The notes under the pieces were generated by a model, which searched no databases, was not told where the DNA came from, and saw nothing but the letters and a program-made list of their open reading frames with translations. Shown piece after piece: positions 1 through 35,761 of a stretch of 64,000 bases of DNA. Position 1 is the stretch's first letter. Each line of letters opens with the position of its first letter. A program made the position numbers and the translations under genes. Source of the DNA: Ceratodon purpureus (lineage: Eukaryota > Streptophyta > Bryopsida > Pseudoditrichales > Ditrichaceae); the NCBI GenBank assembly GCA_014871385.1, contig CM026426.1:90812893-90876892 (forward strand), written 5' to 3'.

Positions 1-9
1 ACATGGATG

Positions 10-684
10 TCAAACGGGAACTTCCTTTGCCACCTCCGATACAGACTGCAGACTTGGACCTATCACAGAACTATCACAAATCCATCTTTCGCCATTTTGT
101 TTCCATAGAGAAATCATGCGCAGCGTAGGGCACTGCGTGGAAGGGTTGTCAACAACGTTAAGAACCTGCAGCCCCGAATACGCTTCCTGGCGGTACGTGT
201 CCCGCCAGAAATCGACTCTCAGAAACGTGACTGGGTCGGGTGGGGAGGGCTGCGTAAAACACAACGTCACGCTGTTGCCGTCCGGGAAGAACCCCACCTG
301 ACTCAGTCGATGAAAGGTTGTGGACTCACTCGGAGGAATATGAGGTGTCATGATTCCTCCGGAAGGTGCTTCCTGAAAGCCTTGGCCAGGTACCCAGACA
401 AAAAGCATGATGCACCTCATCATCTTTGGAGCGTCAACGGAATGGAGAAATTGATCATCAAAGACCACACTGCAGGTAAACACTTTCAAAAGCCACGTCT
501 TAAAATTTTGAGACCAATCCTCAGCGCACTGGTAGAGTGAGAACTCAATCTTGGCCTGGGCGGAGGGTTTGCGAAATACAATATCCCCGATCTGCGGATC
601 CATCATGGAGCTGGTGTCTAACATAATTCGCGATTTCTCACCTAGGCTAAAATAGATTGGTTTCATCGCGAGGTCCATTGGCAT
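10..684 (-). CDS. Hypothetical protein, 224 aa
   Basis: A complete single-exon reading frame from ATG at 684 to TGA at 10-12. I recognise no family. The protein is of average composition, with no signal peptide, membrane segment or repeat, and the middle is Pro/Ser-rich. A TATA-like motif on the same strand (728-734) lies about 45 bp upstream of the ATG, which supports a real promoter with a short leader. It lies beyond the 3' end of the element A transposase and is transcribed in the same direction. A degenerate version of the element's palindrome occurs about 0.5 kb upstream (near 1169). It is probably a cargo gene of element A; the function is unknown. Confidence 0.5.
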   Translation of the reverse strand: MPMDLAMKPIYFSLGEKSRIMLDTSSMMDPQIGDIVFRKPSAQAKIEFSLYQCAEDWSQNFKTWLLKVFTCSVVFDDQFLHSVDAPKMMRCIMLFVWVPGQGFQEAPSGGIMTPHIPPSESTTFHRLSQVGFFPDGNSVTLCFTQPSPPDPVTFLRVDFWRDTYRQEAYSGLQVLNVVDNPSTQCPTLRMISLWKQNGERWICDSSVIGPSLQSVSEVAKEVPV

Positions 685-727
685 GAGGCTTCAGCTGAGA
701 ATGATTATGCGATCTCCACCAACCTCA

Positions 728-734
728 TATATAG
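728..734 (-). promoter_or_regulatory. TATA-like box upstream of the 224-aa gene
   Basis: CTATATA on the minus strand, about 45 bp before the ATG at 684. Spacing suits a start site near 700. Confidence 0.35.
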
Positions 735-1079
735 AGATCATCCCACAAGCAATCACAGAGCGCCGGAAACAGCAATGAAACATTGGTAATTGAATACAGC
801 TTTATTGATTGAGGTGTATCGTACTCTCACAAATTCGGCGGCAGTCTGGCAGGATTCAGGTGAGTTAACCGAGATTTTTTGAACTCTGGTTATGAAGAAA
901 GCGTGCATTTCGATGACCTCCAAAACATTATCTAATCATCATTTAGAATACAATACATATATCTCTCTTAATGGAGCAAACGGGATGATTATATAACGGG
1001 ATATATACCTGCCAAAAAATCCGGCAGTAGGATCTCTGCAATATTGTGTCATCCGGGAGATCAACATGAATTTTACCGG

Positions 1080-1390
1080 ACTTAAATTACTGAGATGTCG
1101 TAGGGTAGTTCTCTGATGTGGTGGAAGGGCGCCACCCGTGGTTTTGGTTCGGACCCAGAACGTAGTGCCGGATCCGTCAGATGATTTCGGGGACGGACTT
1201 GAGCCAAGGTACCCTGCCGCGGGAAGGGAACGAAATGGACGAAAAAATCCGTCAGCCGGGTTTGGGAAGGGGCCGTGATGAGGGGGACCCGGCCCAATAT
1301 CAGAATTCTACATTATGCCATGACGACAACGTTATTCGGGATGAGAATTGCGACGGCGTTTGGATGGATGCAACGGTTAGATAGCAGAGA
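1080..1390. repeat. GC-rich repeat with degenerate BamHI-type palindrome
   Basis: Contains TGCCGGATCCGTCAGATGAT around 1168-1187, a degenerate form of the 14-bp TGTCGGATCCGACA palindrome repeated in element A. It is followed by the same GATGATTT tail seen in the intron array at 7.6-8.6 kb. An AAGGTACCCT block (about 1206) is also shared with that array. Short ORFs here overlap on both strands and are not convincing genes. The rest of 735-1714 is AT-rich with nothing else recognised. Confidence 0.45.
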
Positions 1391-1714
1391 AGTGAGAGCA
1401 TGTGCATTCTATGTCTTCGGTGTGATTGGGTACCATTGATAATAAGAAATTTTACAATCGTTGGCGCATAATGTAGATCAATTTCTGGAAAAACTTAGAA
1501 TATTTATAGAAATAAATACAAATATACAAAAATGTCTGGATTGAACCGTATACTAAACGATGCTCATGCCAACACATGATCTGAATATCCGACATGAATA
1601 CGAGCAGTTTTGCCACCGCTTTAATCTGTGACATAATAGGAATAAAAATGTCACCGAGTTCGTACTGAGCGCCCTAGGATGAAGGTAGGGGAAAAAGACA
1701 CATCAGAAGCAAAC

Positions 1715-4700
1715 CTAGACATTGATAAGCGAAAGAAGGCCACTCTGAAAAATAGCCTTGACCTCGTTAAAGCTGAGGCTTGGAGCATGGATGTAGGAGT
1801 CCTGGTGAATATCAAGGTTGCATATAGCATTGAAGATGTAATAGAGATGCTTGCAAGGCACCCAGGGAGGTCGTTTTCCCAGCGACTTGATGGACATTTC
1901 CTTGAAGTTGGGGCAGGTGCAGGCGGGCTCCGGGCCAATTGTTATTTTGTAGACGTTAGACTCCGATACGGTCTCAGAGACAACGCTGATGATGCACCCG
2001 AAACCTGGGTTAGGTATGAGTGTGACGGAATGGATTCGAATGGTGAGTAGAGTAGATGAGGCCCAGTTGTTCTCGTGCTCTGTTCGTGGCACCCGGTTAC
2101 AGCGCCGAATCTTGAATCCTCCTCGCACCGTGGGATATATTCCTGGAGCTGGGGGTACACTCCACTGCGAGAGGTCAAACCGTGGCCGCTGTGGGAGAGA
2201 TGCACCGTCATGGAAAACTTGGTGAGCGGGTAATTCTTGGCGTTGAGGGAGTCTGAAACCGGCTGCCTCGAGGTCAAGTATCTCCCTCTTTGAAAGGCGA
2301 GAGCCACGCTTGACAGGCCAGATAAGCGGGGGAGGGGGCATGCTGGAGACCCAGTTCCGCTTAGTACCCATGACGCATCTCTGGATGTCGTCGTTACAGA
2401 AGCAAAACTGCATCCAGTTTTGCTGATCCTTCCTGACGTCGGTGAAGATGCCCCAGTAGCATGGCACAATTGTAGCCTTCTTTCCCCGTATGAGCCTCGC
2501 CGTGCACTTCTTATTCGTCCTCGCCTGTTGAGCAAAACACGCCTTCGCCGATCCCTTTGGAAGCCTGACAAGGTGCCACATACTCTCGTCCACATCCGTC
2601 TCCTCCAGAGCGGTTACATGATGACGACTCCTGTTCTCGTCCGGGCTTGAGACTGGCGATGGGGGTGCCGCTTGGACCCTCGATGGAGGTGAATCCTCTA
2701 GTTCAGGATCAGGCTCCTTGCGTGCTCGCGTATTCCTAGTGCTCAGACGAGGTTGAGAAAAATTTACCTTGTCCGGCCTATGGGAGTCATATTCGGATCC
2801 GATGGATTGATTCAGCTTCCGTTTCGTGGACCCAAAGAGCTCCTCGCCTTCGCGATGTGGCTCACGGGAGAGCACTTGTGGAGCGTCATGGAAGTGTTCA
2901 GTGGCATCGGCAAGGCGCTTGGGAATCCTTGATTTTTGAGCTCGCCGTAAACGGAGTTCGGCTTTGCAAGGTCCCTTACCCGGGGTCTCACCACGCAGGT
3001 AGGCGCTATAGTTAGTGCATTGCATGAAGCCCCTGACATAATCGTCCACCGTGGCAAAGTAGATGTTGTCGCCACGATTGCCCGACATCTGAAGCCATAT
3101 ATTGTGCACAGTCTCCGAGAGGTTGCAAGAGGGCATCTCGTCCTTCTCGGCGTCCGTAAGGTCCTGGAATCAAAGAAATTGCTGATTCAATCAATTCTTT
3201 GTCAAATAAGTGTATTAAGTGACTGGATAAAAAAAAAGATGTTGTACTCACCAATTGCATGAAGCCTCCCCACTGCCGATATCTAAAGTGCCAAAATACG
3301 AGCCAAAGTTCGAGGTCACGAAGACCGGAGGCAGTAGTAGCGCCTGAGGAGGTCCACCATGCTCGGATCGCGTGGAAACGAATGTCGGCTTCTTCCATGT
3401 TCTTTGCATCACGATACTGCTTGCAAAGCACGTAATGCTGCCTCTGCAAATCTGATCCGATGATGTGAGCCTCAGTGTGCTTCCTAAGTGAGGTTGCCCA
3501 ATGAAATTGGCACGTACGCTCACGGTCTGGCATTGGAATCGTCGCGTCGCCACTTCCATAGATCTTCCGCACACAGTTCCAGTTGGCCTGGGCGCTGTCC
3601 GCCATGAAGCCCTTGAAGTTGACTTTGTCATAGCCATGTTTTGCCATAATTCTGTTCAGGAATTGCCACATCACGGTCTGGGCCCGCACGTCTTCTGACT
3701 GCATATCACAAATGGCGATAGTCATGACCCGCCAATACTCAGAGTCATAGACATGACATGCCATGGTTGTCCAACCCTTTGTGCGCTTGACGTGATCAAA
3801 CATAATCCAGGAATCCTGGAGATCCCCGCCAGGTTGCATTCGCTTTACAAGGTCCACTCCCGACCCGGGACCTTTCTCGGACATCTTAAAGATAAAAACC
3901 TTGTCCCCTTGAGAACCCTGCTCGGGAAATTTATTGTCATGAATAAACTCCCACTTGCTGCAGCCCCGCAAGGCAGCGATGCCGTCGATAATGCCCAGGT
4001 TACCGATCCCCCTGAAGGTCGTCACGGCGTTCTTAAGCCCGGGCTTGCTGAGTGTATAATACTTCTTGAACACCTCATCCAACTCTTCGTCCGAAAGAAT
4101 GGTCCGCTTCTCCCCCGGTGCTGTTAGGAGGTACTCACTCAGAAAATCCTTACTAGCCTCTAGAGCTAGGGCCGATGTCTTGGCGTACGGATTGTTCGGC
4201 ATATGCAACTCGAGTAGGTCAAGAACCTTCTGCTTGGTCTCCCTGCACTCAACGTATCCAACAGGGTGGTTATGTGTACCGATATGGATACACGCACGTG
4301 ACATCGCAGGATTCCCGAGCACGTAGTACATCCTTGCAGGGCACGTGGCAATGCATTCCGGGGAATATCTGCAGATTTTGCATACAAGTGTGGACTTCGG
4401 AGGAGGATCACAACCAACGACAAACGGGGTAAGCGTGACACCGTCCCACTCAGACTCGTTCACCTCCATCTTGCGTTTGTCTCCTCGAAGCAAAAAGTCG
4501 CACTTCTCGTTCTGGCATTTCAGATGACCTGCACATACAGAATATCTGAAAGTCAGTCCTTGGTCGTTTGTAATGTTGGTCGTCATGGTCTTGCACCATG
4601 GATGTGCGTCGTACTTCTTATCCATCCCTGCCATCGACTTTGCGCTCGCTGCAGTGCCGCGATCAGGGATTGGTGGAAGCTCGAAGAGCACGTCCCTGTT

Positions 4701-5305
4701 AAACTCGGTCGGTAGAAATGGCACCCGATCCCTCTCAAGTGCTCTAAAGTCCAACCTCGACAATGCATTCCTCGCTCCGGGTCTGGAAAAAAGACGCATA
4801 AGGCCGGGGATGACACTGAAGCTACCCGATACTATTTTCTGCGAAGAACTAGGCTGAGCTTGGGACGGCGTAACGAAATCATCCTTATCTGACTCACTTA
4901 AGACATGAATGCGTTGAGCTACGGGTTGTTTCACAGGAGGATTTGGCTCGGTTCCAACATCGACAGTCGATGTCATGGATCGGCCCGGTGTTAATATCTC
5001 AGTGGATGCAGCCCAACGATCCGCAGTGAGTCCCCTCACGACATATCTTCTGGCCTCAAGAAGCCACTCCCTACCAGGCTACCATCCTTAGCTCTAATCG
5101 GCATCTGATATACAGTTTGAATCAATTCGCCGTCGTCGTTGACAATTTCTTCCTCAAGATGGACGGTCTCAAGAACAAGGTTGTATCTCACGCTCAACAA
5201 GCTAGCGGTAATCGACCCTACACCCTCCAAATTACATGGGACACAGAATGGAACATCGTGACCTTCAGCACGTATACGAGCCATCTCTACGGGTATGATG
5301 TGCAC
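1715..5305 (-). CDS. MULE-type transposase, element A copy
   Basis: Putative mobilising enzyme of element A. Exons run from 5305 down to 3252 and from 3163 to a TAG at 1715-1717. The intron 3164-3251 has GTGAGT/CAG borders and joins ...GFMQL to DLTDAEKDEMPSC. Order of parts: an N-terminal region; a Cys/His segment starting at CQNEKCDF and ending in HIGTHNHP, like the WRKY-GCM1 fingers known from MULE transposases; a DDE-like core with FDHVKRTKGWTTM, MADSAQANW and CQFHW; a variable linker; and a SWIM-type finger CTCPNF...CKHLYYIF near the C-terminus. It aligns throughout with the copy at 48,456-52,167. Near 5085 the N-terminal frame shifts relative to that copy: the 5305-start frame stops at 5036-5038, and homology resumes in the next frame. 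This copy may therefore be inactive or use a later start. It is divergent from the methyltransferase-like gene, about 200 bp apart. Confidence 0.8.
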
Positions 5306-5500
5306 AGAGTGGAAGAGCCGAAGTGAAGCAGGAAGGCTGTTGCATTGGGTGGTTTAAGAGTTTTGTAACCAAGTAGGTGATAGTTCACCATTGCAGCGTG
5401 GTTTATGATGTTATGCTTCGCATTTGGGTGTATTTGTTGTGCTCTGAAATGCGGCCTTCTATTGACTTGCATGTAACGTGCCTCTACCTTGCAGGGCGCG
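5306..5500. promoter_or_regulatory. Shared intergenic region of the divergent pair (A)
   Basis: A 195-bp gap between the transposase start (5305, minus) and the methyltransferase-like ATG (5501, plus), likely a bidirectional promoter. An acceptor-like CTTGCAG directly precedes the plus-strand ATG, so a 5' leader intron is possible. No clear TATA box is seen. Confidence 0.45.
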
Positions 5501-8500
5501 ATGAGCACTTCCCACGATATGGTGGACGCGGCCACAGAGGCAGTGAAGAGCGTGATAGACGATATTCCGAGAGGTCACTTCATGGACGAGGATATGGGTA
5601 GTTCGCAACCTCCCATCCGTAATGGCAGGGCCCCTCCAAAAGTAAACTTTATGGGCTCCTTGCTCGAAGGAGATGATGAAGTGGGCAAGGCGGGGTTCTC
5701 GAGCGAGCAGCAGGAGGAGGGCTCGCGTGAAGAGCAGGAGGACGGCTCGCGTGAGCAGCAAGAGGATGGCTCGCGTGAGCAGCAGGAGGATGGCTCGCGT
5801 GAGCAGCCGGAGGAGGACTGGTTTCACCAAGAACCTAGCAAGGACAAGGATAGCAAGGAGGATGACGATCAGACCGAGGATCAGACCCAAGTTGGTGATG
5901 GCGAAGCCGGCGCTGATACTTTATTGAGCCTTGGTGGGCAGGTACAAGAGATTGAACCTTCTCGAAAGCCTGTGAATGTTCGGCAAGCATTCCGTCAATT
6001 CAGGGAGGAGTTGAAACCGGACCCATATGCTGCATTACTCAAGATGCGCCGCAGACCTCACCAATATTCAATGATCAAGATTCCCTTATGCCGGTTAATC
6101 CCATGTGATTTCGTGCGTCCAGCAATGCAGAGTGATGTACAGAAGTTGCAAGCTGAGTTCTTCAACGGCATAAGACCCGGGTTTGGGGCATTTTATGTTG
6201 CAGATACATCGCACATGGGGGACGTCGCAAGTGTCACCGAGGAGATGAAGTCAGGATGGTGTAATGCTTGGAAGGTGTTGAACGCTGCGTTCGAGGATGA
6301 GATCAGGCAGCATAGGGAGACAAAAGATCTTACAGGAAAGATGTTTTATGTCTTTGATGGTAACCACCGCACAAGGGCATGGCGGGAGTTCATCGAAGTG
6401 GAATACCCAGATGATCTTGAATGGGCTAAAGCAAACGGAAGGCCGGACTGTATTCTGCTCGATGTGAAGGGAAGCCGTGAAGCTCTAGTGACAGCAATGC
6501 ATGCCATCAACAAGTGAGTCATAGACAGTGCAAGAGTATTCTCTTTACTCCGGATGTTGATGCTGGATTAAATGACATAGAAATTTAGAATCTTTGATTT
6601 TAAAAAAGTGTGTGTTGTATTCGACATAGGGCGAATGAGGATGCTTACGTCAAAGAAAGGCTGCCGCACACTCTACACAAGATACAGACGTACGGGCAAA
6701 TGTCTGTGGAGGAGCTGGAAAGGAGTGGAATTCTAACGCCGGATCTTCTGGCGCGAACGAAGAGTTCAACTAAGAAGTCCTGGCACTCGATGCCTCAAGA
6801 AGTATTTGTGACGTTTTTACACAGCGTAAGTGTTATAAGAAATCAGTGCTGTCAATTCGTAATTAGATGATTCAAGTCCCGAGATGTTAATGGCACGTGG
6901 ACTGAAACAGGCAACATTGGCCCAAGTCGCAGAGGAGGCTTCTCAAATTTGGATCAACGAGCACCCTGGTGATGATTCAGGGCACGAGATGAGGGCAGCT
7001 GTGGACAAGGCCGTGAAGGAAGCCAAGGATAGGCTGCAAACAAAGTTCAACAGAGAGCAGGCCGTTGCAAATCCAATCCATGGCAAGGGATTTCAAAACG
7101 AGGTAAATACTTTGGAGTTGATCAATTGGGTTATTCTTTGAATATAGGACGTTGAAATTCGAGGTGATGAGCGGAAATTGATCTCAAAAATGGTCTGTCG
7201 GATTTTTCTTTAAATCTTAGGACGTTCAGATTCCAAGGGGATGTGCCAATATTTCTCGCAAAAATGCTCTGTCGGATTCTTATGGTAAATTTCGGACGTT
7301 CATTTTCCGAGGGGATGTGCCCATTGAGCTCGCGAAAATGATCTGTCGGATTTTTGTAAGAAATTTCGGACGTTCAATTTCCAAGGGGATGTGCCCATTG
7401 AGCTCGCAGAAATGATCTGTCGGATTTTTATGAGAAATTTCGGACCTTCATACTCCGAGGGGATGTGCCCATTAAGTTCGTAGAAATGATCTGTCGGATT
7501 TTTATGAGAAATTTTGGATGTTCAATTTCCGAGGCGATGTGCCCATTGAGCTCGCAGAAATGATCTGTCGGATTTTTATGAGAAATTTCGGACGTTCAAA
7601 TTCCGAGGTGATGTGCCCATTGAGCTCGCGGAAATTTTCTAAAAAATCCGACAGATCGATTTGTAACACTCATGGTAGCAAGGTACCACAGAGATTTTAC
7701 ATACATTTTGATGATTTGGATCAATTATTTGCTCTATGATGTGTTTTTTAAATAATTTTAAGGAAAATGTGCCTCAAAATGCGAAAAATACCTAAGTACC
7801 CTGGAATGTTTGAGTCGAGAAATCATCTTTAGAATCCGACAGATGGTTTTTCTGTGTCCATTTACCTAGGTACTCTGGGAAACTAGTCACAAGAAATTAT
7901 CTCTGGAATCCGACAGATGATTTTCGTGTGTCAATCATCTCAAGGTACCTTGTCAAGTTGGTGATAGCAAACCAGTCTAGAAATCCGACAGATGATTTTA
8001 TTGTGTCCATTTACCTGGGTACTCTGGAATGTTTGTCCGAAGAAATAATCTCTAAAATGCGTCAGATGATTTTAGAGTGTCGATTACCGCAGGGTACTCT
8101 GTCAAGTTGGAGAATTCAGATTAGCTCTGAAATCCGACAGATGGTTTTGATTGTGTCAAATTACCTTGGTACTGTGGAAAGTAAGACAGTAGAAATAATC
8201 TCTAAAATTAGACAGTTGAATTCAATGTGGCCAATTCCTCAAGGTACGTCGGGAAATTAGATATCGTAAACAATCTAAAATCTATGACAGATGGTTTATT
8301 TGTGTCAATCTACCTAGATACCTTGGAAACTTAGCCACATGAAATAATCTCAGAAATTCGACAGACGATTTTGATGTGTTGATTTCCGCAAGGTACCTTG
8401 TCATGTTGGAGATCTAAAATCATCTCTAAAATCCGACAGTGAATAATTTTGTGTTCTCCTACCTAGGTATTGTGGACTATAAGACACAAGAAATATTCTC

Positions 8501-11310
8501 TGAAATCCGAGAGATGATTTCTATGTGTCGATTACCCCAAAGTACCTTGAGAACTTGGCATTGAGAAATCATCCGTCATATCCGATAGATGAAATCTATA
8601 CCGTAATCTTTACATGGTACTGTGTGCATTTGTATGACAGTTCTACTGTTGGATTCTTTAGCGGTTTTCTAACACACTTCTTTTGGAAGAAAATGATGAT
8701 TTTACATAGATAGTTAATGCACTTGTATGAGGAAATATGGTATATGATGCAATGATGTCTCTCGGATTCTAATCTTCACTAGTCTGATTACTGGGGATGC
8801 TGTTGATTTTCAGATCAAAAGACATTATGATCGGCACCAAACCAAGGTTGAGATGACCATCGATAAGCTCCAGGCAATTGCAACAGCTGAGGTGACGGCC
8901 AAAACGAAAGCGAAATGGCTGAGGTGGTGGAATGGGTCGGCGAGTTCAAGGAAAACATTGAAGTTTTCACCAGCACCTTGCTCAATTGAAGTGCTCAACC
9001 CCTGGATTACAAAAGCTGCATTTTGGGCAAACGTAAGTGTATTTCATTATCTCTAGAACTCTGAATTGTTACACTACTTCGAGGTTATAGCCGATGGCGT
9101 CCTTTTTAGTTATTTTTGTCTCACTCTTGAGTTGATGGTCTTGTATCAGTTAAAGACGAAGTAGAGAAAGAGTGCCTCAACTGGTTGGCAACCAGTTCCG
9201 ATTCAGAGGAAGACGTCAACTCAAAGCGCACTCCTATGCCCGAGTACATCGAGAAGTGGCGTGTGCTTCTATGGGAGAAGGCATACTTGTCGTTCTTCAC
9301 TGGAGCTAATGTGTATTCGAAGTCGCAACCATTCAATTCCCAACCAGGGACTGACATGGCTTGGAAGCAATGTCTGTATTGGTACTTTAAGCGGGAGCTC
9401 ATCCCAGCTGGTGTAGTAAAGAGTATACCACCTCCATGGTTCAGCTGGACGGAGACATTGAATTCGGAGTTCATCTTCACAACCAACCAGCGGAAGATGT
9501 TCAATTTGAACCATCTGATTGAGTGCTGCTGGTATATCGAGTGCCCAAAGTCATTTGTAACTGCTGAGGAGAAGGCTGTAAGGGAGATGTTTACCAAGAG
9601 GAGAGATGGGGATGACGACACCCATGATATTTCAGACGAAGCTCTTCCTGCTCAGGATGCTGAGCCAGAACAGGATACACAGGTCGTTTCGACATCCACT
9701 GGTGCCGGGGACGCGAACACGAAGAAACGGAAGAGGGGGGCAAAGTCGGCATCGAAGGAGTCCCACCAGGAACGAGTGAAGAAGAGGAGTAGAGGGAAGA
9801 AGTCCGAACCCGCGACAGTTGAGCCGAATGGTGCGGAGAACGGGACATTCTCTCCCAAGATTGGACATGCTGAGAAGCCAGACGTCAGCGCACCTCAAGC
9901 AAGATGCCCTGTTCATGAGTTGATTCTGAATGAATCAATAACTGAGTGGCAGAAGGCAAATCCTAGAATGAGGTTGAAAAGCATGCCAAAGGCATTCAAT
10001 GATATGGTCCAGTGGATTCGGAGCGTCACACCGCAACGGGTTCGAATGAAGGACGGGAAGAGTGTTCGGGGGGGTGGATTGGCAGATCTCATTATCATTG
10101 ATATTCCAGAGGGTCTACCGGTCCCAGGTATATCCGATGAGGACGAGATTCCAGATTGGAACAGCAGAAGCGACAATTACCTTGCAGCCGTCTTTGGCTT
10201 TGTTAAACTCGTTCTGCAAGACCAGGGGTGTGTGATCATTATCCATCCGGATGACAATGGCAAAATTGAGGACGAGATTCGTGATTTTCATCAAGTGGTT
10301 GAATTGAAGACTGAGAGGTCGTGGACAGGCATCAATAGATTGCTTTTTGGCAGCGCAAAAATAAGCGGCATGACAACATGCTTTTTTAAGGTGCAACTTC
10401 TCACATTATCCTCGAATAACAGCTTTGAATTCAGACCGACACCCGAGGATTACAAGAAAAAGAGCATCGACATCGTTGACCGTGATGTCATCCTCAACTG
10501 GGTAACGTTGGAGCAACAGACGATGCGCAAGGAGGTGCCATGGCGAGGAGCGAGGGAGAAAGACGTGCTGTTTATCGAGAGTTTAATCACAGCCACCACC
10601 GATCCCGGTGACGTCGTCGTCGACATCGGCGCCGGAACGGGTAAGTCTCATCGTTTTTGCACATGCATGGTAACTTTCCACAATTCCATTATTACGAAAT
10701 TTGAAACTATTATATTCTAACAAAGAGACACTCCATTGTATCAGGTGCGTCAATCAAAGCTTGCCGGCAGTCAGGACGGAACATAGTCGCGCTTGAGGAT
10801 GATCACGAGCTGTATACAGAAGTCCTTAAGAAGATGGCCCTGCCGCCACTGCCTCTACCAAAGGCGGATACATCTCATGTACCAATGAAGTCAATGATCG
10901 AGAAAGACGTGGTGGCCACTCCTAAGCCGGTGAATAAATTCACCGCCATGATGACTGAGGATAGCGACGACGAGTAAGTGAGTATATCAATGAACATTTT
11001 CCAAATGAGACATTCTGAATAGATATGGTGTTTTGTGCAATATGGATCTGTTTTTTGATACGGTTGTGGTTGCAGACCGCTAAGTCCACGTTCTAGGGGG
11101 GTAATTAACGAGTGCATCAAGAAGATAGCTCTATCACCTGATATGCTACGGCTTCCAGAGTATGCCGAGCTAGGGGCTCAATTTCAAGCTAATGTGGAGT
11201 CTCCAACATTGAAGAAATTTACACGTAGAAAATACGATGGTCGAGTCCTAAGCTTTGTGGATGTTGAAGCTGAAGTTGAATCTTATAGCCTTCTTGTTGA
11301 TCCGGAGTGA
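5501..11310 (+). CDS. ParB-like plus DNA-methyltransferase-like protein, element A copy
   Basis: Multi-exon gene. Predicted exons: 5501-6513, 6630-6825, about 6870-7102, 8814-9032, 9150-10640, 10745-10973, 11075-11310 (TGA). The first exon encodes an acidic tail of four E-D-G-S-R-E-Q repeats (about 5703-5815), then a region ending in FYVFDGNHRTRAW, which resembles the conserved DGxxR motif of ParB/sulfiredoxin-fold domains. The C-terminal half has DLIIIDIPEG (about 10,083), placed like motif IV (DPPY-type) of N6/N4 DNA methyltransferases. It is followed by DIGAGTGASI across the 10640/10745 junction, like the FxGxGT motif I; this order matches the permuted beta class. A Lys/Arg-rich stretch near 9720-9800 may be a nuclear signal. 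The motif IV match is weak, so activity is not assured. The exon 2/3 and 4/5 joins are out of phase at canonical sites, so this copy may be decayed. It aligns with 41,001-47,922. Confidence 0.7.
7140..8760. repeat. Intronic array of TCGGAT half-sites in both orientations
   Basis: Fills most of the third intron (7103-8813) of the methyltransferase-like gene. From about 7190 to 7630 there are about six units of roughly 75 bp, each carrying TCTGTCGGATTTTT and GGACGTTCAATTTCC. From about 7640 to 8560 the core flips to AATCCGACAGATGATTTT in units of roughly 70 bp, with CCTAGGTACTCTGG or CAAGGTACCTTG between copies. Outside the core the two halves differ, so this is not one simple inverted repeat. 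Short ORFs inside are by-products. Confidence 0.75.
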
Positions 11311-12042
11311 TCGCAGTATTACATGTTCATGAATTTTAATTTTCCAGAACTTCTCTGTGTATACAGTTTTTAATTCAACAATACGGCCTATATACGTGGT
11401 TTGCATAGTAGTTACTTATTTGAATGAACTCTTCTTCATTACACCGTTTTCATTCTTTCTAAATTCATGGATTAAATGAAATTGCCGACTCAATCTTATT
11501 CGCTATAATGCTTAAATTTTGCTGTTCAGTATCTTCTATTATTCTGATAATCTGTTTCTACTATCTTCCATATTAAGTTAACTCTCTCTTGCATTTTCAA
11601 TCAATTGTATGATTATTCAAGAATTCATTAACTTATTTCATGTTTATGCCTGAATTTCACAATTTTATTTTTGAAAATACTTTCATTAAATGTTTTATAA
11701 TCTTTTACTAATTTATTTTTCAATTTATATTCTATCAATAAAATGTGCACAGTTCTTATACATTCAATATCAATCCCGGAGAAGGATTCCAAATGTCCAT
11801 CATCTATATTGACAGGGAGTCTTTTTGAACTTGAAGACCAAAACCTATATCCGCGCGTCACCTACCACCGACCCCGGTGGTTTTCATGGAGCTCACAAAC
11901 CTTGTGTCAAATCCGACAGTTGGTTTCGGCTTGCGTTCTATGCCACCGGGGGTGTCATACCCGGGATGCTGAAACCCGGTAATTGCGACCCGCAGCTTCC
12001 AAATACCAACCCCGGCGGCATTCTGCAAAGCCTAAACATGGC
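11311..12042. other. AT-rich spacer passing into a GC-rich repeat
   Basis: 11,311-11,820 is AT-rich 3' flank with no gene seen. From about 11,850 it becomes a CCGG-rich repeat with CCCGGTGG, CCCCGGCGGCA and a half-site AAATCCGACAG (about 11,920). It resembles 15,960-16,125, suggesting a dispersed promoter-associated repeat. Confidence 0.4.
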
Positions 12043-12056
12043 TGTCGGATCCGACA
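12043..12056. promoter_or_regulatory. Perfect 14-bp palindrome TGTCGGATCCGACA, copy 1
   Basis: Perfect inverted repeat about 145 bp upstream of a TATA-like CTATAAATACC (about 12,187) that precedes the CTD-like gene. Identical copies lie at 16,070, 16,828 and 20,791. Confidence 0.6.
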
Positions 12057-12186
12057 ATGGAAATCTAGCCTCGTCGAAATCCGCCGGCCTCTACGACCTT
12101 GTGCATACCCCATACTTTGGCGCCTAGTCATCCCTTCTTATTATCTTCTGACCTAGCCGCCGCGGCCCTCGTACCCTGAAGTTTTA

Positions 12187-12198
12187 CTATAAATACCT
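12187..12198 (+). promoter_or_regulatory. TATA-like box of the CTD-like gene
   Basis: CTATAAATACC followed about 50 bp later by a GGTGAGTTT donor-like site. This suggests a short first exon and a leader intron that holds the 96-bp minisatellite. Confidence 0.45.
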
Positions 12199-12301
12199 TC
12201 CATTTTTCATAGTTTGTCACCTTCTGCTTAATCCTTTTTGGTGAGTTTCATCCTCTATTTTTTTTGTTGTTCACTTTTATTGCCTTTCTGCTATTTTCGT
12301 C

Positions 12302-13061
12302 TCTCTCATTTGCATCGCATATGTGAATTTGCTAGTGTCTGTGCTTCCTTACTGTGGCTATGGAGGTGGGGGGCCGAGGCTCGAGAGGGCCGATGAAGCC
12401 TCTGCCGGCCTTGCATTTGTGTATGTGCTTGTGTTTGTGCTTCGTTACTGTGGCTATGGAGGTGGGGGGCCGAGGCTCGAGAGGGCCGATGAAGCCTCTC
12501 CCGGCCTCGCATATGTGAATTTGCTAGTGTCTGTGCTTTCTTACAGTGGCTATGGAGGTGGGGGGCCGAGGCTCGAGAGGGCCAATGAAGCCTCTCCCGG
12601 CCTCGCATATGTGAATTTGCTAGTGTCTGTGCTTTCTTACAGTGGCTATGGAGGTGGGGGGCCGAGGCTCGAGAGGGCCAATGAAGCCTCTCCCGGCGTT
12701 GCATATGTGAATTTGCTAGAGTTTGTGCTTCCTTACTGTGGCTATGGAGGTGGGGGTCCGAGGCTCGAGAGGGCCGATGAAGCCTCTGCCGGCCTTGCAT
12801 TTGTGTATGTGCTTGTGTTTGTGCTTCGTTACTGTGGCTATGGAGGTGGGGGGCCGAGGCTCGAGAGGGCCGATGAAGCCTCTCCCGGCCTCGCATATGT
12901 GAATTTGCTAGTGTCTGTGCTTCCTACTGTGGCTATGGAGGTGGGGGGCCGAGGCTCGAGAGGGCCGATGAAGCCTCTGCCGGCCTTGCATTTGTGTATG
13001 TGCTTGTGTGTGTGCTTCCTTACTGTGGCTATGGAGGTGGGGGGCCGAGGCGGTTTCTTCG
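12302..13061. repeat. Minisatellite of eight 96-bp units
   Basis: The block GGAGGTGGGGGGCCGAGGC recurs at about 12,362, 12,458, 12,554, 12,650, 12,746, 12,842, 12,937 and 13,033, a period of 96 bp (one unit is 95). Units are nearly identical. Because 96 is a multiple of three, both strands show long open frames (Gly-rich on plus, His/Arg/Ser-rich on minus). I read these as repeat by-products. The array lies between a donor-like GGTGAGT (about 12,240) and an acceptor-like TTTCTTCGCAG ending at about 13,062, so it is probably intronic. Confidence 0.8.
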
Positions 13062-13134
13062 CAGGTTGAAGAATGCTATAAAATCTAATACGCAATTCAT
13101 TGGTTTTTTAATTAGGAGTTCTCTAAAGCAAATA

Positions 13135-13779
13135 ATGGGGAGCAGTGATCAAGTACCGACACCAGCTGAGACCGAGGTACTAGATTAATAGTACACTAAA
13201 CCTAAGATATCTCTGATTCACATACATGACTCCTGCCTCGTAATGTTTTGCTCACCTCTCATCTGGAAGAGAAATCTAACCTTCTAATTATTTCTGCTAT
13301 TCTAGGTGTATACCGATGCATCTGAGAGGTCTATCTCCAACCCCATTCCAGTGATCAATGTTTCCGATCTCTCGGATTCATATGATCATCAATTTTGTAC
13401 CTGTGCTGGAGGAAGCCCTGTGAGTCTTGGTGGTGGGCCGTTCGAAGTCCATTCTCCACAGTACTTGCCTACCTCTCCAGTTTACATGCCTACATCTCCA
13501 GTGTATGAGCCTACCTCTCCAGTTTACATGCCTACATCCCCAGTGTATGAGCCTACCTCTCCAAGCGCCTTGCCCACTTCTCCTGCACCGGATTCACCGC
13601 CAATGTCTCCTCCCTCTCCTTCATCGCCTATTAGAGTGAGGAGGCCAGCCCATGTGGTCTTTGCCCTTCCGGCAATACCGCCTTGCCCTGTTCCAAAAAC
13701 CAGGCGATATTGGAGGAGGCGCCGCAACTGGAATTGTAGACAGGCTCGAGAGTATTATAGTCGTGGATCACGTAGATAG
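13135..13779 (+). CDS. Small protein with RNA polymerase II CTD-like heptads
   Basis: Two coding exons, 13,135-13,176 and 13,306-13,779 (TAG), joined in phase across a GTACTA/TCTAG intron, give 171 aa starting [14 protein letters not shown]. Residues about 65-105 form heptads of the form Y-x-P-T-S-P-V ([21 protein letters not shown], repeated) ending in ALPTSPA. This is the RNA polymerase II C-terminal-domain pattern YSPTSPS with positions 2 and 7 changed. A Pro/Ser region follows, then an Arg-rich basic tail. No catalytic domain is seen. It is preceded by a TATA box and the 14-bp palindrome. A role as a decoy for CTD-binding factors would be inference; it could also be an unrelated low-complexity protein. 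Confidence 0.6.
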
Positions 13780-13789
13780 TACCTGTGTT

Positions 13790-15080
13790 TCTAAAATAGA
13801 TTGGATGATTATCCAGCTAAGGAATAAATAATTTGAGTAACATAAAGCAACCACATATATATCTTATAGAATAGTATACAGTACATGGAGATATAGTACA
13901 TGAAACAATTAGAATACAGTACATATAAAAACCTTGTCAAAGTTAGTATCTACCTTGCTTGATATACATTCTCATATGAACACACTATTAGTAATAGATT
14001 GAATATATGAATATGCTTGTTATTTCATCGGATTATCATTCACTAGAAATAGATTAAATTAACTAACCTACAGAATTTATGAAAATTGGTATATAAAATA
14101 AACAGCCTAGACCTTCAATAGTCCAAGGACCATTATCTATTCAACATTTAATTGTGACCCAAAGTTTAAATGTCACCCATCATTAATACTTATCCTCGAA
14201 TTTATGTGTAATCCTATTTTTTGATTGTTTCTTTACTAGTTGTTGTATTCAGTTCTGATTGTCATTTAGAGGTGGTGTCTAAATCAATAGACATTTCTAT
14301 ATGAAATTAGAAATGTAATCAACTAAAATATGGTATACTAATAGCATGATCTTATAATGCTGGGTTGTTATGTAACAGATGAAAGTCATTAAAACATATT
14401 TAGATCATAGCAATGGAAACAATAGTTGAAACTTTATCTCTAAACAAAGGTGATCTTCATATTATTTGCTATATTTCCATTTAACATTCATCCAAACACG
14501 ATAGTGTCAATATCAATTTTCTCGAGTTCTGACTTATTTAATATTCTAATCCTGTAATCTCAGCTTTTCAGCTATTCTGTACTTGAGCTTAAAGACTATG
14601 ACTAATGGTTTGTAAATATGTATATTCTAATTAATCTTATAGATATGAATCCCCTTATTGATCCTGGAGGATTGAAAAAGTCTTCCAAGGTGTGCACATG
14701 GTGATGGCTTATAGCATACTCAACCCTGATACCCCTATGCCTAATATATTTATCACCGCTTTCTTTTTTCTAAAATATTTATTGACGGTTTTTTAAAATT
14801 CAATAATTCATTTTTTGATTATTTAATTTATCATTTATTAACGTTCTATCAACATAGAGTTCACGAATTCCTTTCCCTTTTTAAGGTTTAAACTAATTAT
14901 GGAATCTTTTACCTTGTAGTGTATATTGTAAAAGTATCAATTCGGATATTTGCATATTATTGTTCTTTAAATCAACTAGTTTATTCTATAAATAGTTAGT
15001 CACTTGTATGACCCCCATCATATGTCTCCTTTTACACTTCCCCGTTCATAAGTCAACTAGTCTAAGACTTCAGAAGCACC
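13790..15080. repeat. AT-rich dispersed repeat downstream of the CTD-like gene
   Basis: No gene. About 13,935-14,420 contains TATGAACACACTATTAGTAATAG, AAATGTGACCC-type blocks and AGATCATAGCAATGGAAACA. The same blocks occur in the same order at about 19,125-19,590 and in part at 15,840-15,960. 14,500-15,080 is AT-rich with nothing recognised. Confidence 0.6.
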
Positions 15081-15087
15081 TTCCGTA

Positions 15088-15215
15088 AAGGGTGAGCCCC
15101 CCGCAGGGGGGGCTCACGCGATGGGAGCATCCCGAGCCGTAGGGCAAGGGCGAAGCCTGGCCCGAGGCGTAGGGTGCTCCCATCGCGTGAGCCCCCCCTG
15201 CGGGGGGCTCACCCT
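15088..15215. repeat. GC-rich foldback element, arms about 45 bp
   Basis: AAGGGTGAGCCCCCCGCAGG... at 15,088-15,133 is matched by its reverse complement at 15,171-15,215, ending CTCACCCTT, with one indel. The loop is about 37 bp. Each arm also holds an internal palindrome (GAGCCCCCC/GGGGGGGCTC). The surroundings are AT-rich, so this looks like an inserted foldback MITE; no coding capacity. Confidence 0.8.
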
Positions 15216-15289
15216 TCATAACCCCCGTTGGGGAATACTAAAGTTTGGGCAGGTTAGAAAATCTCACAATTAAGTTACATCAGTCAAGC

Positions 15290-15500
15290 ATGAGTTGTGG
15301 GCTAGATGCAGACTTGGCCTGATAGGCTCATCATGCTGCAGTTGCGGGGTGCCGGGTTCAAATCCCCGCGGAAACACGCCCCAGCCTGAAAGGATTATAA
15401 AACTTTGAATCGTGCTCGGTCTTCGAGCCCCGCGGGTTTTTCCCCGAAAAAAACCAAAGGGGGTTCTGAGCAGCACCCCGCCCCGACCCCGGCGGTTCTT
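15290..15500 (+). repeat. tRNA-derived SINE-like sequence
   Basis: Contains GCCGGGTTCAAATCCCCGCG (about 15,350), which includes a good internal RNA polymerase III B box (GGTTCAAATCC) in a T-arm-like stem. An imperfect A-box-like TGGCCTGATAGG lies upstream (about 15,314). I could not fold a full cloverleaf, so a SINE or decayed tRNA fits better than a working tRNA gene. Confidence 0.35.
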
Positions 15501-16069
15501 CCAAATCTCAGAATCCATCTGACGGATTTTTATGATGTTTTGGGCTCATTAGAGCAACCACCGGGGTTCCCATAGAGGTCTGTTCTGCGTCTTAAATTTC
15601 GTACGTTCATAATTTTTGCGATTTCATAATTCCTTATTGTATATATCTCGTTCATTTGACCTATTTCTTGTTTGTTGAGTTTAGTATTAGCTTTTAATCT
15701 TTTGCAAGCATGTGTTGAACATCTCACTTCCTCTTTTTAACACCATCAAACATTGATTGGATGATTATCCAGCTAGAGATTATTTAATATGAGTGACATA
15801 AAGCAGTCACATGGATATCATATATAAGGAACAAATAGAATACAAATAGAATACAGTACATAGAAATACCTTGTCAAAGCTAGCATCTACCTTGCTTGAT
15901 ATGCATTATGATATGAACACACTATTAGAAATAGATTGTATATATGCGTATGCATGTTCGGAAGCTGAATACCTGGCAGCTGATACCCGACCTGCTGGGA
16001 CCTTCGCCAGTGAGACCCGCAGCTTCTCAATATCAATCCCGGCGCAATCATGCAATGCTCAAACTTGGC

Positions 16070-16083
16070 TGTCGGATCCGACA
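16070..16083. promoter_or_regulatory. TGTCGGATCCGACA palindrome, copy 2
   Basis: Perfect copy inside a repeat (about 15,960-16,125) similar to the one around 12,043, including the CGCAGCTTC and AAATCCGCCGGCC flanks. No gene start follows closely, so this may be a decayed cassette promoter. Confidence 0.55.
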
Positions 16084-16243
16084 ATCGAATTCTGAGTTCT
16101 CCTAAATCCGCCGGCCCTGGTCCCGATTATTAACTAGTCATTATGTATAAGTCAAAACTAACTAAGCTACTTAACGTTTTCAATTTATTATATTAGGTTT
16201 AACAACATAGTTATCGATTCCTCCAATGGGCTGAGGACCATTT

Positions 16244-16345
16244 GCTATTCCACATTTATATGTGACCCCACATTTATATGTGACCCCACATTTAAATGTT
16301 ACCCCACATTTAAATGTTACCCCACATTTATATGTATCCTCAAAT
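16244..16345. repeat. 20-bp tandem repeat CACATTTATATGTGACCC
   Basis: About five head-to-tail copies of CACATTTATATGTGACCCCA with TTAAATGTTACC variants, in an AT-rich stretch (about 16,130-16,640) without a gene. Confidence 0.65.
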
Positions 16346-16827
16346 TTATATTAAACCGCAATATTCTTTGGTTCAGACATTATTACGTCATGTGTTCAGT
16401 TGTTATCGTCTTTTACAAGTGGTGTCCAATTAAATAGATTTTTTAACCCAATCCCTGCAACCCTCATGCTATCCCTAGAATCCCATCAATTATGACCCTG
16501 TCCCCCTCGATCATACGCTCATATGCGGTATAAGCATTGTCTCTGTTGATTTATTATATGTATATTTGAGTTTGCCCAAATTATAAACTAAAATAAATTG
16601 TTCGTAAACACTTTACTGTTGCTGATGTTTACATTAAATCACAACAAATCAAGCTTCGCAAGCAGTAACCAAATGAATGCTTAAGCAGTACATCTACGGC
16701 TCACTCTTACATGCCGATAAACCAGTTAGTCAAGTGGATATAACTGTGCAACGATATAAGATTAACCGAGGACCAGAATGGCGCGCGCAATGGAGGTCGG
16801 TGGATAAACCCTCTACCAGAAATTGGT

Positions 16828-16841
16828 TGTCGGATCCGACA
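16828..16841. promoter_or_regulatory. TGTCGGATCCGACA palindrome, copy 3
   Basis: Perfect copy about 235 bp upstream of a TATA-like CTATATATATC (about 17,070) preceding the 150-aa acidic gene. CCGCCGG blocks follow, as at copy 1. Confidence 0.55.
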
Positions 16842-17069
16842 GCGCATTTTCTACCTGATAAAAAACCGCCGGGGTGAAGGGAAGTAACTTAGCTGGCCTA
16901 GATGCTACACAAGCAACGAGGTAGATCCGCGACCCTGGCTCTGTGGAATGCCGCCGGCCCTAATCTCGTGGGTAGTTCAGCACTAGCCGCCGTTGTACGC
17001 AAAACCCTGTTCTCCAGTAGCCGCCGCCTTTTTGGGACCGCAACCATACCCTGACACCACCACGCCTAC

Positions 17070-17082
17070 TATATATATCATT
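17070..17082 (+). promoter_or_regulatory. TATA-like box of the 150-aa gene
   Basis: CTACTATATATATC in a GC-rich to T-rich transition. The following 0.8 kb has donor/acceptor-like sites and probably holds leader exons and introns. Confidence 0.35.
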
Positions 17083-17908
17083 GTCTGCAGTGTTGTTCCA
17101 CGCTTTGCACTTTTGGTTGGCAGGTATGAGTTGCTCATTTGGTTGGCAGCTTGCTCGGTTGGTTGGCTCCCTTTTCTTTGTATCTCACTTCCAGCTATCG
17201 TGATTGTTTTTGTTGAGCGACCTATGGGAAGGCCACTCTCCGTTCTCTTTAGCGTAGAATCTCGTTATGTGCTGAGCACTTGGTATTTGTATGCAACTTC
17301 TGGTTGATGGTTATTAGCCGCAGATGGAGATCTTTCATATCTGTAAAGTTTGAATTCCAGTTGATCATTCTTGCATGAACTTTGCTTCAACTCTTCTTGC
17401 GACACTCACTGGTTGAGGAGAGCATGTTGCGCAATGTTGGAACTTATGCATTCATACTGTAACCGTGTCCGCAATTACAGTGCTTGCAGCTCTTATACTG
17501 TCGCCTTGCTCTTGCTGTTGCTCTTGATATTTGAGAATTGTTTGCATTTTCTTCTACTTGTTCTGGGTGCTAGGTACTTGGTGTTATCGCAATGGCTGCA
17601 TCGGGTGTTCTGTCATTGGCATTATTGCGTGCTAACGACCTTGTGATTGGGGTGATGCTTGTGCAGGATCGGATCTCATTCACTGAAGCAGCCTAAGTTG
17701 AAGTTGTAGAAACCGAGCATCTTACCAAGGTATGTGGTCCAGCTAGCATCGGTTTTCTCTGCGAGTCACTGATGTTTATATTCTTGTGTGGTAGCGGGAA
17801 TTTGGATGTGGCAGCGAGAACCCGTAGGATAGAATGTGTATGCAAGACTGTACACAAAATGTCGTGACAATTTCGGAAATAATGAATTCATCTTGTTTCT
17901 GTCTGCAG

Positions 17909-18361
17909 ATGGCGGACCGTTCCTCTTGCGCTGCAGTGGTCTGCAAAACATGCCCACTCCCCGGTACTTGCACATGTCCTACATTGTCTAGCCCACCAGT
18001 ACTGAAGGTCCCGGTCCCAATCCCGACCAGTTTGACTCCTGAAGAGCACCCTGACCAGCATGGCAAATCTCTTAGTCCAACCAATGACCGTATGCACGTG
18101 ATGTGTGTAGAAGGTCACGGGCGCTCTATTTGCTTTGAAGTGAAGAGTTTTGAGGATGGTCTCCCCGAGTGGGTCCAGAAGTGGATGGATGATGTTGCCG
18201 CTCGCGGGGATGGACGTGATTACTACCCGGGGGATGCTGGCTATCTTTGTGAGGACTCCGATTTTCTCGAGTACGCTGGAGAAGAAGTTTACGACGCAGT
18301 AGATAGTCCTGGAATCCCTCTTGCGATTTTGTGCGGCGATGATGAAGACCATGATAAGTAG
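17909..18361 (+). CDS. Hypothetical acidic protein, 150 aa
   Basis: ATG at 17,909 directly follows an acceptor-like TTTCTGTCTGCAG; stop TAG at 18,359-18,361. The first 25 residues are Cys-rich (CAAVVCKTCPLPGTCTC), followed by a Pro-rich linker and an acidic C-terminal half ending GDDEDHDK. No known family is recognised. The architecture (palindrome, TATA box, leader intron, Pro-rich head, acidic tail) resembles the gene at 21,103, so the two may be diverged relatives, though I see no strong alignment. It is a cargo gene of element A with unknown function. Confidence 0.5.
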   Translation: MADRSSCAAVVCKTCPLPGTCTCPTLSSPPVLKVPVPIPTSLTPEEHPDQHGKSLSPTNDRMHVMCVEGHGRSICFEVKSFEDGLPEWVQKWMDDVAARGDGRDYYPGDAGYLCEDSDFLEYAGEEVYDAVDSPGIPLAILCGDDEDHDK

Positions 18362-20007
18362 ATGCTTGCTTCTGTAGTTATATGTGTACTATGCGGCACA
18401 CTATATCCTCGGCTCTAACAGATGATGTCACTGTAAAACACTTACCTCCCATCAATCACTTTTGAATGAATACAATCATGAGATTTTTGTAAATAAAGAT
18501 ATCGGCTTTTATGTAATCTTTGCATACTGTTTAAACAAGTGACTTCTTTGGCAAGAAGTCCCGATTCCAGGATAAGGGAGCTCGTAGAACCTTGGGACTT
18601 CTTCGGAGTGTGGTGATTTGGGGATTTTGGATTGCGAGAAATGACATGGTATTTTTAGAGACAGTCCTGGTCCGCAGATAGAATCAAGACCCTATGAGAC
18701 TCTATGACTCAGAACGGCAGTCTCGACTGGAGGAGAACTTTGAGCAGCCTAGAAAGAGCTAAAACCGCAAGGATGATCCAGAGCATACTTCATGCTTTCG
18801 ATGCTGCCTGGTTCTGTAGCAATCTTTGATATGTCTGGAACTTCGCAGCCTAGCCCACGGACTCTGTGTTTATTATGTGGTACCGACCTCCCTTGTTCCT
18901 TGATCCGGTTCTGTTACTAACTTTTCCTTGTGGGCTTGTAATCTACATTCATTGCAATTAACTCCTTATATCCAAAAAGAGCAAATAAAAAGGGATGCCA
19001 ATGCTGTTCTCTACTGCGTACATTCTCCTTATGAACCATAACAAAATATTTGGTTTAATGCACACTTGGTTACAGCTGAACTCAATAGCAATGAAATCAA
19101 AAATGGACAATTAATTTAGACAATTGATATACATTATGATATGAACACACTATTAGTAATAGATTGTATGTATGAGTATGCTTGTTATTTCATCGAATGA
19201 ATTTACTGTAAAACAATTTAAATAACTAAGCTACAGATTTGTTGAATATTGGTATATAAAATTAACAACCTAGACCCATTATGTATTCAACATATAAATG
19301 TGACCCAAAATTTTATTCTGACCCAACATTAATATTTATACACGAATTTATATGTAACCCTCTGATTTACTTCTTTCTTTATTACGTGGTGGATTCAGTT
19401 CTGATAGTCATTTAGAAGTGGTATCTAATTAAATAGACATTTCTATATAAAATTGAGAATAAAATCAAATAAAATATAGTTTACCCACAGCATAATTTAA
19501 TAATGCTGCGTTGTTTGGTAAAAGAAGAAACTCATCAAAGCATATATAGATCATAGCAATGGAAACATTAAAGTTCAAACTATATCTCTAAACAAAGCTG
19601 ATGTTTATATTCCACTTAAGAGCGCCTGGCCGCATTAGTAGAATTTAAGCATTAATCCGATTTCCCCATTCTAGTTCTACCAGCCTAAATTAAATAGAAT
19701 GTTACATTGAAAAATGCCAATTTCAAACTTTAAGTTGATGAGGGATGTCACCTTGATTTAATCAACTCGACTTTGGCGTAAATCCCTAAAATGCAACAAT
19801 CCATTTGTCCACCACTGAATACGCAATTCATATAAAATTCTTGGCATATAACAAACTAAGTGATAACTGAAACTACTCCCTCAACTGCAACATTAAGTAG
19901 ACATTTTTAATTAGCAACCACGTTGACCATGACAATATCTACCGTAGAGCCTGAGAGTTGCTACGGCAAAAACATTGAATGAAAGGATTACACGAACCTT
20001 GTTTTCA
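18362..20007. repeat. Gene-free AT-rich spacer with dispersed repeat
   Basis: 19,125-19,590 repeats the blocks at 13,935-14,420 in the same order and orientation. 18,540-18,620 has a small inverted GACTTCTT/AAGAAGTC. No convincing ORF. Confidence 0.5.
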
Positions 20008-20628: not shown

Positions 20629-20790
20629 ACTACAATTCTCAAACTAAGGAGGCTAAAAACGAAGCACAAACAAAAGTGATAACAGAAGAGAGACATACTT
20701 AAGATCACATCCTCTGAATCCAAACAGGTTAACCCTAAACTTGCACATTAATGCGCAGTACCTCAATAACATTGTAGTCCAGTTTTTGAC

Positions 20791-20804
20791 TGTCGGATCC
20801 GACA
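20791..20804. promoter_or_regulatory. TGTCGGATCCGACA palindrome, copy 4
   Basis: Perfect copy between the divergent genes starting at 20,628 (minus) and 21,103 (plus). Confidence 0.55.
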
Positions 20805-21102
20805 TCATGTTTTGGGAGACTAAGATGTTGAAGGGTATGGCATTCAGTATATCCGTACGTGCGAGTTTATTGCAATGTGCCATGGCCGCCAAAAACGTTT
20901 TAATTAACCTCCAATTATGAGCTAATATTTATGAATGGTTTCCTCCACCAACGGCTGAGCCTCTTATTTGTTGCTAAGAGCAACCTCATACAAACGCATT
21001 GCTCCTTGTCTCTCACACCCCCCCTTGATTATTTTCTGACCTACATTGCACATCAAAGCTTCACTCCATCTTCTCTCTCATTCTCTTGCGATCACCGTGG
21101 TC

Positions 21103-21705: not shown

Positions 21706-21887
21706 CCTAAGCCTTCCAATTCCGAGAACAGTGACAGCCCCCCCCGGTGATTCTAAGGATCATTTTTAATATTTACAATTTTTTTTCAAAAAATTAATTT
21801 CGCGGATTCTGGAATCTTGGTGTCTGAATTTCATTCATCCACTTCATCCGCTCATGGGTTTATAGGAACCCCGGCGGTAATTTTTTC

Positions 21888-21990: not shown

Positions 21991-22072
21991 ACCAGAATGC
22001 CCGCCACATCGACTTCCAGATATGACCTATGATCAACAGGAAACGCTATACATGTGCACGTCACATACCTCA

Positions 22073-35756: not shown

Positions 35757-35761
35757 GGAAA

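Follow-up and report, generated by a model that had tools for sequence, protein, structure and literature searches.

The window, by which we mean the whole stretch of 64,000 nucleotides of Ceratodon purpureus DNA analysed here, contains two divergent gene pairs. In the first pair, a two-exon transposase gene, MULE1 (1715..5284, minus strand, with the intron modelled at 3,164-3,251), lies head to head with PB1 (5501..11310, plus strand, seven exons as modelled), which encodes a ParB-like and N6/N4-methyltransferase-like protein. The second pair consists of PB2, likewise ParB-like and methyltransferase-like (41001..47922, minus strand, ten exons as modelled, the two N-terminal ones at 47,922-46,703), and the two-exon transposase gene MULE2 (about 48491..52167, plus strand). 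One frame break was observed in each transposase gene, near 5,050 in MULE1 and near 50,048 in MULE2, and open-frame relatives exist. PB1 and PB2 are both open as modelled.

The initial annotation stated that the pair at 1,715-11,310 recurs at 41,001-52,167, and indeed both pairs were found and both are divergent. By blastp, the two transposases share 45% identity (E=0) and the two PB proteins 29% (E=4.7e-110); both resemblances are far beyond chance. The further statement that the exon borders match is correct in part. The transposase intron has an identical position in both copies, and five of the six PB1 introns agree with PB2 introns in place and phase, a count that leans towards agreement because the splice sites were picked by hand. 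On the other hand, the third PB1 intron has no counterpart in PB2, and PB2 contains extra introns.

The transposase and its partner protein

Among the 38 proteins homologous to the transposase, the Pfam domain PF10551 was found in none and Transposase_mut in one (E=0.034). MULE2 has a weak SWIM match (E=0.11) near its C-terminus. The transposase is too diverged for Pfam. Its alignments contain the pattern D, D, C-x2-H together with NLxETVHN, which may be of the MURA/MULE DDE type, and a zinc-finger-like cysteine/histidine region ahead of the catalytic core. No relatives of the transposase or of PB were observed in viral contigs. A search of GTDB genomes produced a single contig with a transposase relative, in a cyanobacterial genome bin. 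This contig, which includes only a short upstream sequence, has an intron at the same position as the window copies (compared by eye), and thus eukaryotic contamination is suggested.

The ParB-like domain of PB1 (5978..6511, plus strand) contains the motif FDGNHRTRAW. A ParB/sulfiredoxin-type fold is indicated by the top 15 VIA-align rows, all of which are ParB, Noc, KorB, PadC or sulfiredoxin. Foldseek produced no match with E below 0.001. Since none of the 79 members matched Pfam ParBc with an E of 0.1 or lower, we call PB ParB-like; two of the 79 match Pfam DndB, with the best E of 0.0059.

Most of the methyltransferase-like domain is encoded by the PB1 exon at 9167..10640 (plus strand), with DIPE at the motif IV position and motif I, DIGAGTG, at the exon end. 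This exon matches Pfam N6_N4_Mtase with E=0.006 and a score of 17, which is below the cut-off of 26.7 bits. The PB profile matches PDB entry 5hek (E=1.1e-5) only around the SAM-binding motif I. The catalytic motif of N6/N4 DNA methyltransferases is (D/N/S)PP(Y/F/W), the DPPY type. By sequence alignment only, the motif IV position is occupied by DIPE in PB1, DVPE in the S3 lineage described below and DYPD in PB2, and because of this departure we speak of a methyltransferase-like domain and not of a methyltransferase. The structure model of this part, made from four sequences, is poor (mean pLDDT 47). Between copy 1 and another genomic copy, C3, omega is 0.12 for the ParB exon and 0.12 for the methyltransferase exon. 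The methyltransferase-like domain is kept by selection, its motif IV being atypical.

Large MULE-type elements and the recurrence of the gene pair

Both gene pairs are cores of far larger elements. Copy 1 is a MULE-type element that occupies positions 1..22003 of the window and extends 1,556 bases beyond its left edge, for a total length of 23,559 bp. The left terminus is exact in locus L044 and common to two other genomic copies. The right terminal repeat is inverted, its inner 90 bp being 97.8% identical, and ends at 22,003, where it is followed by the perfect 10-bp target-site duplication CCACATCGAC (22004..22013). Copy 2, also MULE-type, spans 35755..54135 (18,381 bp). Its GC-rich termini are inverted, with arms of 59 bp that are 81% complementary, and it is flanked by the perfect 9-bp duplication TAGCCGCCT at 35746..35754 and 54136..54144. 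Both duplications fall within the range of 8-11 bp given for MULEs (PMC6446971), and both elements have terminal inverted repeats as expected in this superfamily. A trial search for target-site duplications at the C3 and C5 copies gave one 10-mer and none, respectively, and was discarded, as the right end had been wrongly assumed. As to size, a review of giant transposons states that no Pack-MULE of one study was longer than 7 kb (PMC6431247). Both elements in the window are MULE-type DNA transposons of large size, and their core is a conserved pair of genes, one for the transposase and, divergently transcribed, one for PB.

An LTR retrotransposon harbours copy 2 as an insertion. The LTR pieces at 28,685-29,492 and 55,278-56,092, 26.6 kb apart, show 99-100% identity where they were compared, and the host retrotransposon contains a gag-like ORF (33498-34808, minus strand) and a protease-like match within 30714-32918. 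Near the elements there is an ORF (60273-61442, minus strand) with Pre-SET (1e-11) and SET (1.4e-7) domains.

The right arm of copy 1 contains an ORF (13306-13779) that has heptad-like SPVYxPT repeats and weakly matches the CTD repeat of RNA polymerase II (E=0.0017). In copy 2 there is a region of cargo, gene X (37333..38558, plus strand). Gene X encodes about 360 amino acids with a weak Self-incomp_S1 match (E=0.0089), and a counterpart is at 573-1652 of locus L068, on the minus strand. The region is 86% identical at the DNA level to the S3-lineage copy, and the latter shares 85% identity with the C3 and C5 right arms. Such likeness despite the more diverged transposases suggests exchange of cargo between elements.

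We analysed co-occurrence of the two genes in the genome, 362 Mb in 151 contigs, the window being on a contig of 110.5 Mb. Including the window's own copy in each case, there are at least 65 matches to the MULE1 exon and at least 78 to the MULE2 exon. The first family comprises 29 other loci (L003-L031) and 35 lower-ranked ones, of which 23 were examined for the partner; in the copy-2 family this was done for 12 of the 77 other matches. Twenty-seven of the 28 loci L004-L031 can be aligned to L003 over about 5 kb with 97.8-99.3% identity, and the remaining one, L025, is 99.1% identical to it over 3.8 kb. An open N-terminal PB exon was found in 27 of these 29 first-family copies, divergent in all 27; in the other two, L025 and L028, there is no open frame of this exon. 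The C3 copy, when read further, contains the whole counterpart of PB1, with a ParB exon that is 96% identical (tblastn). Compared with C3, about 1.55 kb, including the N-terminal PB exon, is missing between the genes of copy 1.

In the lower-ranked loci of the first family, the ParB exon is at the expected place and divergent in 17 of 23 cases (11/16 and 6/7). It is absent from this place in the remaining six: one of these (L051) retains a PB-intron array at about 90% identity, three (L050, L057, L058) contain arrays that are reversed and only about 67% identical, and in two (L055, L061) neither the ParB exon nor an array of the PB-intron type was recognised. The reading frame of the 17 ParB exons is often broken. 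Open stretches of at least 300 amino acids were observed in five copies and of 274 amino acids in the four copies of the S3 lineage, the rest being shorter or interrupted at the conserved motif. The S3 lineage has 69% transposase identity, and in the one copy measured PB is 58% identical to PB1 in the ParB exon and 50% in the methyltransferase exon. In the copy-2 family, the N-terminal PB2 exon was present in three of three copies and the ParB exon in eight of nine, that is, 11 of 12 have the partner; the remaining copy has none in the 1.3 kb fetched. These counts, 27/29, 17/23 and 11/12, together with the 69% lineage, support the earlier suggestion that the transposase and PB form a conserved two-gene module inside mobile elements, rather than a coincidence of two copies. 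Copies lacking the partner, named in advance as the observation that would speak against such a module, do occur, but as exceptions (2/29, 6/23 and 1/12).

In a search with full-length PB, none of the 7,994 candidates that were scored matched with an E of 0.001 or lower. The ParB exon alone matched 181 of 2,943 candidates, and we therefore attribute the failure of the full-length query to intron-less gene calling. An attempt to derive co-occurrence from equal-sized contigs of transposase and ParB matches was abandoned, as it produced one coincidence (4,187 bases), which by a rough estimate is the chance level. One ParB-exon homologue resides on a Ceratodon purpureus contig of 112 Mb with a UG locus tag. 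The U and V chromosomes of this species exceed 100 Mb each in a genome of 360 Mb (PMC8000587). Since the UG-tagged contig appears to be U, the contig of the window is probably the V chromosome. Copies of the elements are found both on autosome-sized contigs and on a probable sex chromosome.

Lineage-specific palindromes

In the introns of PB genes there are arrays of perfect palindromes whose sequence depends on the lineage: TGTCGGATCCGACA, GCCGGTACCGGC or CCGTTAACGG. The palindrome cores are GATC, GTAC and TTAA, and each has adenines on both strands. The part of the copy-1 element inside the window contains four exact TGTCGGATCCGACA palindromes and 22 half-site matches on both strands, compared to 0.8 expected. 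One PB1 intron (7103..8813, plus strand), with tandem repeats of periods 74 and 75/149 bp, accounts for 12 of the 18 positions within 1-22,003 at which the half-site (TGTCGGAT/ATCCGACA) is exact. The TGTCGGAT half-site was observed neither in the copy-2 element nor in the window outside both elements. All 16 exact GCCGGTACCGGC palindromes of the window lie inside three PB2 introns on the minus strand: three at 41897..42438, eight at 43799..44822, where there are tandem repeats with a 95/191-bp period, and five at 46181..46702; none occurred in 100 Markov simulations. Counts within arrays are not independent, as tandem arrays multiply one ancestral site.

The palindrome TGTCGGATCCGACA is retained in relatives. 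The C3 copy contains one exact palindrome and 27 half-site matches. In an S3 copy the homologous PB intron contains TGTCGGATCCGACA six times in exact form, although blastn (E up to 1e-3) detects no similarity between this intron and those of copy 1 or C3. The array periods of about 74.5, 149, 95 and 191 bp (7103-8813; 43799-44822) lie close to multiples of the helical repeat of DNA, so that the sites could face the same side. The palindrome TGTCGGATCCGACA (exact copies within 12043-20804) starts with TGT and ends with ACA, as does bacterial parS; this is a resemblance only.

A composite 74-bp site, CGGYGG-N24-TGTCGGATCCGACA-N24-CCRCCG, was found in the right arm of copy 1, outside the PB gene. 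The sites are at 11875..11948 (two mismatches in the centre), 12013..12086 (exact centre), 16040..16113 (exact centre, one outer mismatch) and 16798..16871 (exact centre), and their spacers are not conserved. A further exact palindrome at 20791..20804 lacks the outer arms. When gap lengths were scanned in the window and three genomic stretches, by criteria fixed after five sites had been seen, 11 sites, one of them weak and three at orthologous positions, had a gap of 24; no site had a gap of 14-23 or 25-32, and the gaps 33 and 34 occurred once each.

We rejected the possibility that the palindromes are chance satellites, as the palindrome is conserved while the repeat units and spacers are not. 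The same observation bears on a broader explanation, by which PB is captured, hitchhiking cargo and the palindromes are ordinary satellites with no function. The right arms do carry variable cargo, as exemplified by gene X, whose DNA is 85-86% identical between elements with more diverged transposases. However, PB is kept in the same place and orientation across three lineages and is under purifying selection between copy 1 and C3. Such an origin of both features seems very improbable and is already hard to hold.

The presence of adenines on both strands of all three cores is what would be expected if PB were a working N6-adenine (or N4-cytosine) methyltransferase acting on its own palindromes, marking the element ends or repelling host factors, an extension of the marking of element DNA or ends that was suggested in the initial annotation. 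The homology around motif I and the purifying selection on the methyltransferase-like domain are in line with this proposal. However, DIPE, DVPE and DYPD at motif IV are not of the DPPY type, and the Pfam score is below the cut-off. The changed motif IV takes weight from the proposal, and we consider it rather unlikely. The palindrome arrays themselves point to sequence-specific recognition of the elements rather than to marking by methylation.

In the copy-2 family the palindrome switches between copies. Seven of the nine fetched stretches contain CCGTTAACGG (7-10 per 1.3 kb) in the same place as GCCGGTACCGGC of the window, one contains GCCGGTACCGGC, and one neither. Copies with a transposase exon 94-97% identical to that of copy 2 have a different palindrome and a PB only 68-71% identical to PB2. 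The ParB exons of the window and of eight of the nine copies fall into four subtypes: A (C4, C11, C2), B (C1, C13), C (C8, C5) and D (the window and C6). The ParB exons of A, B and D are mutually 65-71% identical (65-67% between A and B), whereas their first transposase exon is 94-98% identical to that of the window; for subtype C the latter value is 83-84%. The symmetrised 22-nt consensus GTACTGCCGTTAACGGCAGTAC is common to A (41 sites) and B (18 sites); the consensus is AGCAGTGCCGTTAACGGCACTGCT in C (17 sites) and CGCCGGTACCGGCG in D (21 sites). Single sites vary, 7 of the 18 in B being symmetric only one base beyond the core. Within a single transposase family, therefore, the partner differs between copies, and so do the sites. 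In the copy-2 family PB differs far more than the transposase exon, so that joint inheritance of the two at strictly equal rates does not hold. PB may have been exchanged between elements of this family, which would correspond to the independent acquisition considered in the initial annotation; congruence of the transposase and PB was judged by identities among a few lineages. Since A and B share the site, whereas C and D have different palindromes at 75-77% identity of the ParB exons, specificity may lie outside the ParB exon or in another protein.

Another explanation assigns the sites to the transposase. Subterminal repeats serve as transposase binding sites in other DNA transposons, and the palindromes could be such sites, with PB as an accessory protein pairing or protecting the ends. 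The location of the composite sites, which are in the right arm and not in the PB gene, would fit this explanation, as would the zinc-finger-like region before the catalytic core, and the common site of A and B, whose ParB exons differ by a third. On the other hand, different palindromes occur in copies of the copy-2 family with first transposase exons that are 94-98% identical, and the majority of the sites are located in introns of PB, a long way from the element ends. We regard this explanation as unlikely.

Proposed self-recognition by PB and comparison with known systems

As the arrangement resembles VANDAL/VANC in logic, the explanation that we hold most likely is that PB is a ParB-type self-recognition factor, specific to its lineage and functionally similar to VANC; in our judgement the chances that this is so are about evenly balanced. 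PB, perhaps together with the transposase, would bind the palindromes of its lineage as ParB binds parS. It could possibly spread as an NTP-dependent clamp and would thereby act only on its own element lineage, countering host silencing or licensing transposition. The methyltransferase-like domain may bind SAM or DNA, or protect sites, without normal adenine methylase activity. Speaking against self-recognition are the copies without PB, the broken frames of several older ParB exons, and the armless palindrome at 20,791, as well as the incomplete agreement between palindrome type and ParB-exon identity and the lack of ParBc and Foldseek matches.

A wider scenario is more tentative, and we would put it somewhat below even. 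The elements may use ParB-parS-like self-recognition in a eukaryote, in which each lineage would have its own palindromic code, amplified in the introns of the reader gene. The reader would diversify or be exchanged between near-identical transposons as the palindrome switches. Dozens of elements could in this way keep separate identities, and the partner might spread from the arrays and shield the element from silencing or mark it against silencing.

Compared with bacterial ParB-parS, Noc and KorB, PB is different in being a gene of a eukaryotic transposon, fused to a methyltransferase-like domain, and in the lack of ParBc in 79 members. It is similar to DpnA (5hek) in the motif I region and in that the motif IV position precedes motif I; however, its motif IV is not of the DPPY type, and only 63 profile positions are matched. 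Genes for epigenetic enzymes inside transposable elements have been described, namely TET/JBP genes in DNA transposons of fungi, SET genes in MuDR elements of Phytophthora and DNMT genes in retrotransposons (PMC12730594; PMC5890265). The moss elements are similar in this respect. However, no ParB-methyltransferase protein is among these cases, and PMC12730594 does not contain the word ParB. The initial annotation knew of no described MULE family with such a partner; in agreement with this, no ParB/methyltransferase-like partner of a transposon was found in searches of the open-licence literature.

The closest parallel is provided by the VANDAL/VANC system (Hiun/VANDAL21) of Arabidopsis. There, too, a MULE-type element carries an extra gene, and short noncoding motifs vary between related elements (PMC5735166). 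The targets of VANC are often tandem repeats that vary considerably between related transposable elements (PMC5735166), and VANC removes DNA methylation specifically from its target elements (PMC5735166; PMC13317346). In the moss elements, likewise, a lineage-specific short motif is repeated in noncoding element DNA. The partner, however, is ParB/methyltransferase-like, and an anti-silencing role for it would be by analogy. The motifs are perfectly palindromic and for the most part located within introns of the partner gene itself. Finally, the moss elements have terminal inverted repeats, whereas in VANDALs these are described as absent or short and degenerate (PMC6446971).

VANC is the known case, in the literature that we found, of a sequence-specific factor encoded by a DNA transposon and acting on the transposon's own copies. 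The moss elements, found in an early-diverging land plant, appear to be designed differently: a ParB-like domain of prokaryotic type is fused to a methyltransferase-like domain, and the palindromic codes are directly legible in the sequence. Since a single genome contains many recent copies side by side, with different codes, the coevolution of reader and sites in a selfish element is directly testable. If binding is confirmed, PB could offer new sequence-specific DNA-binding modules.
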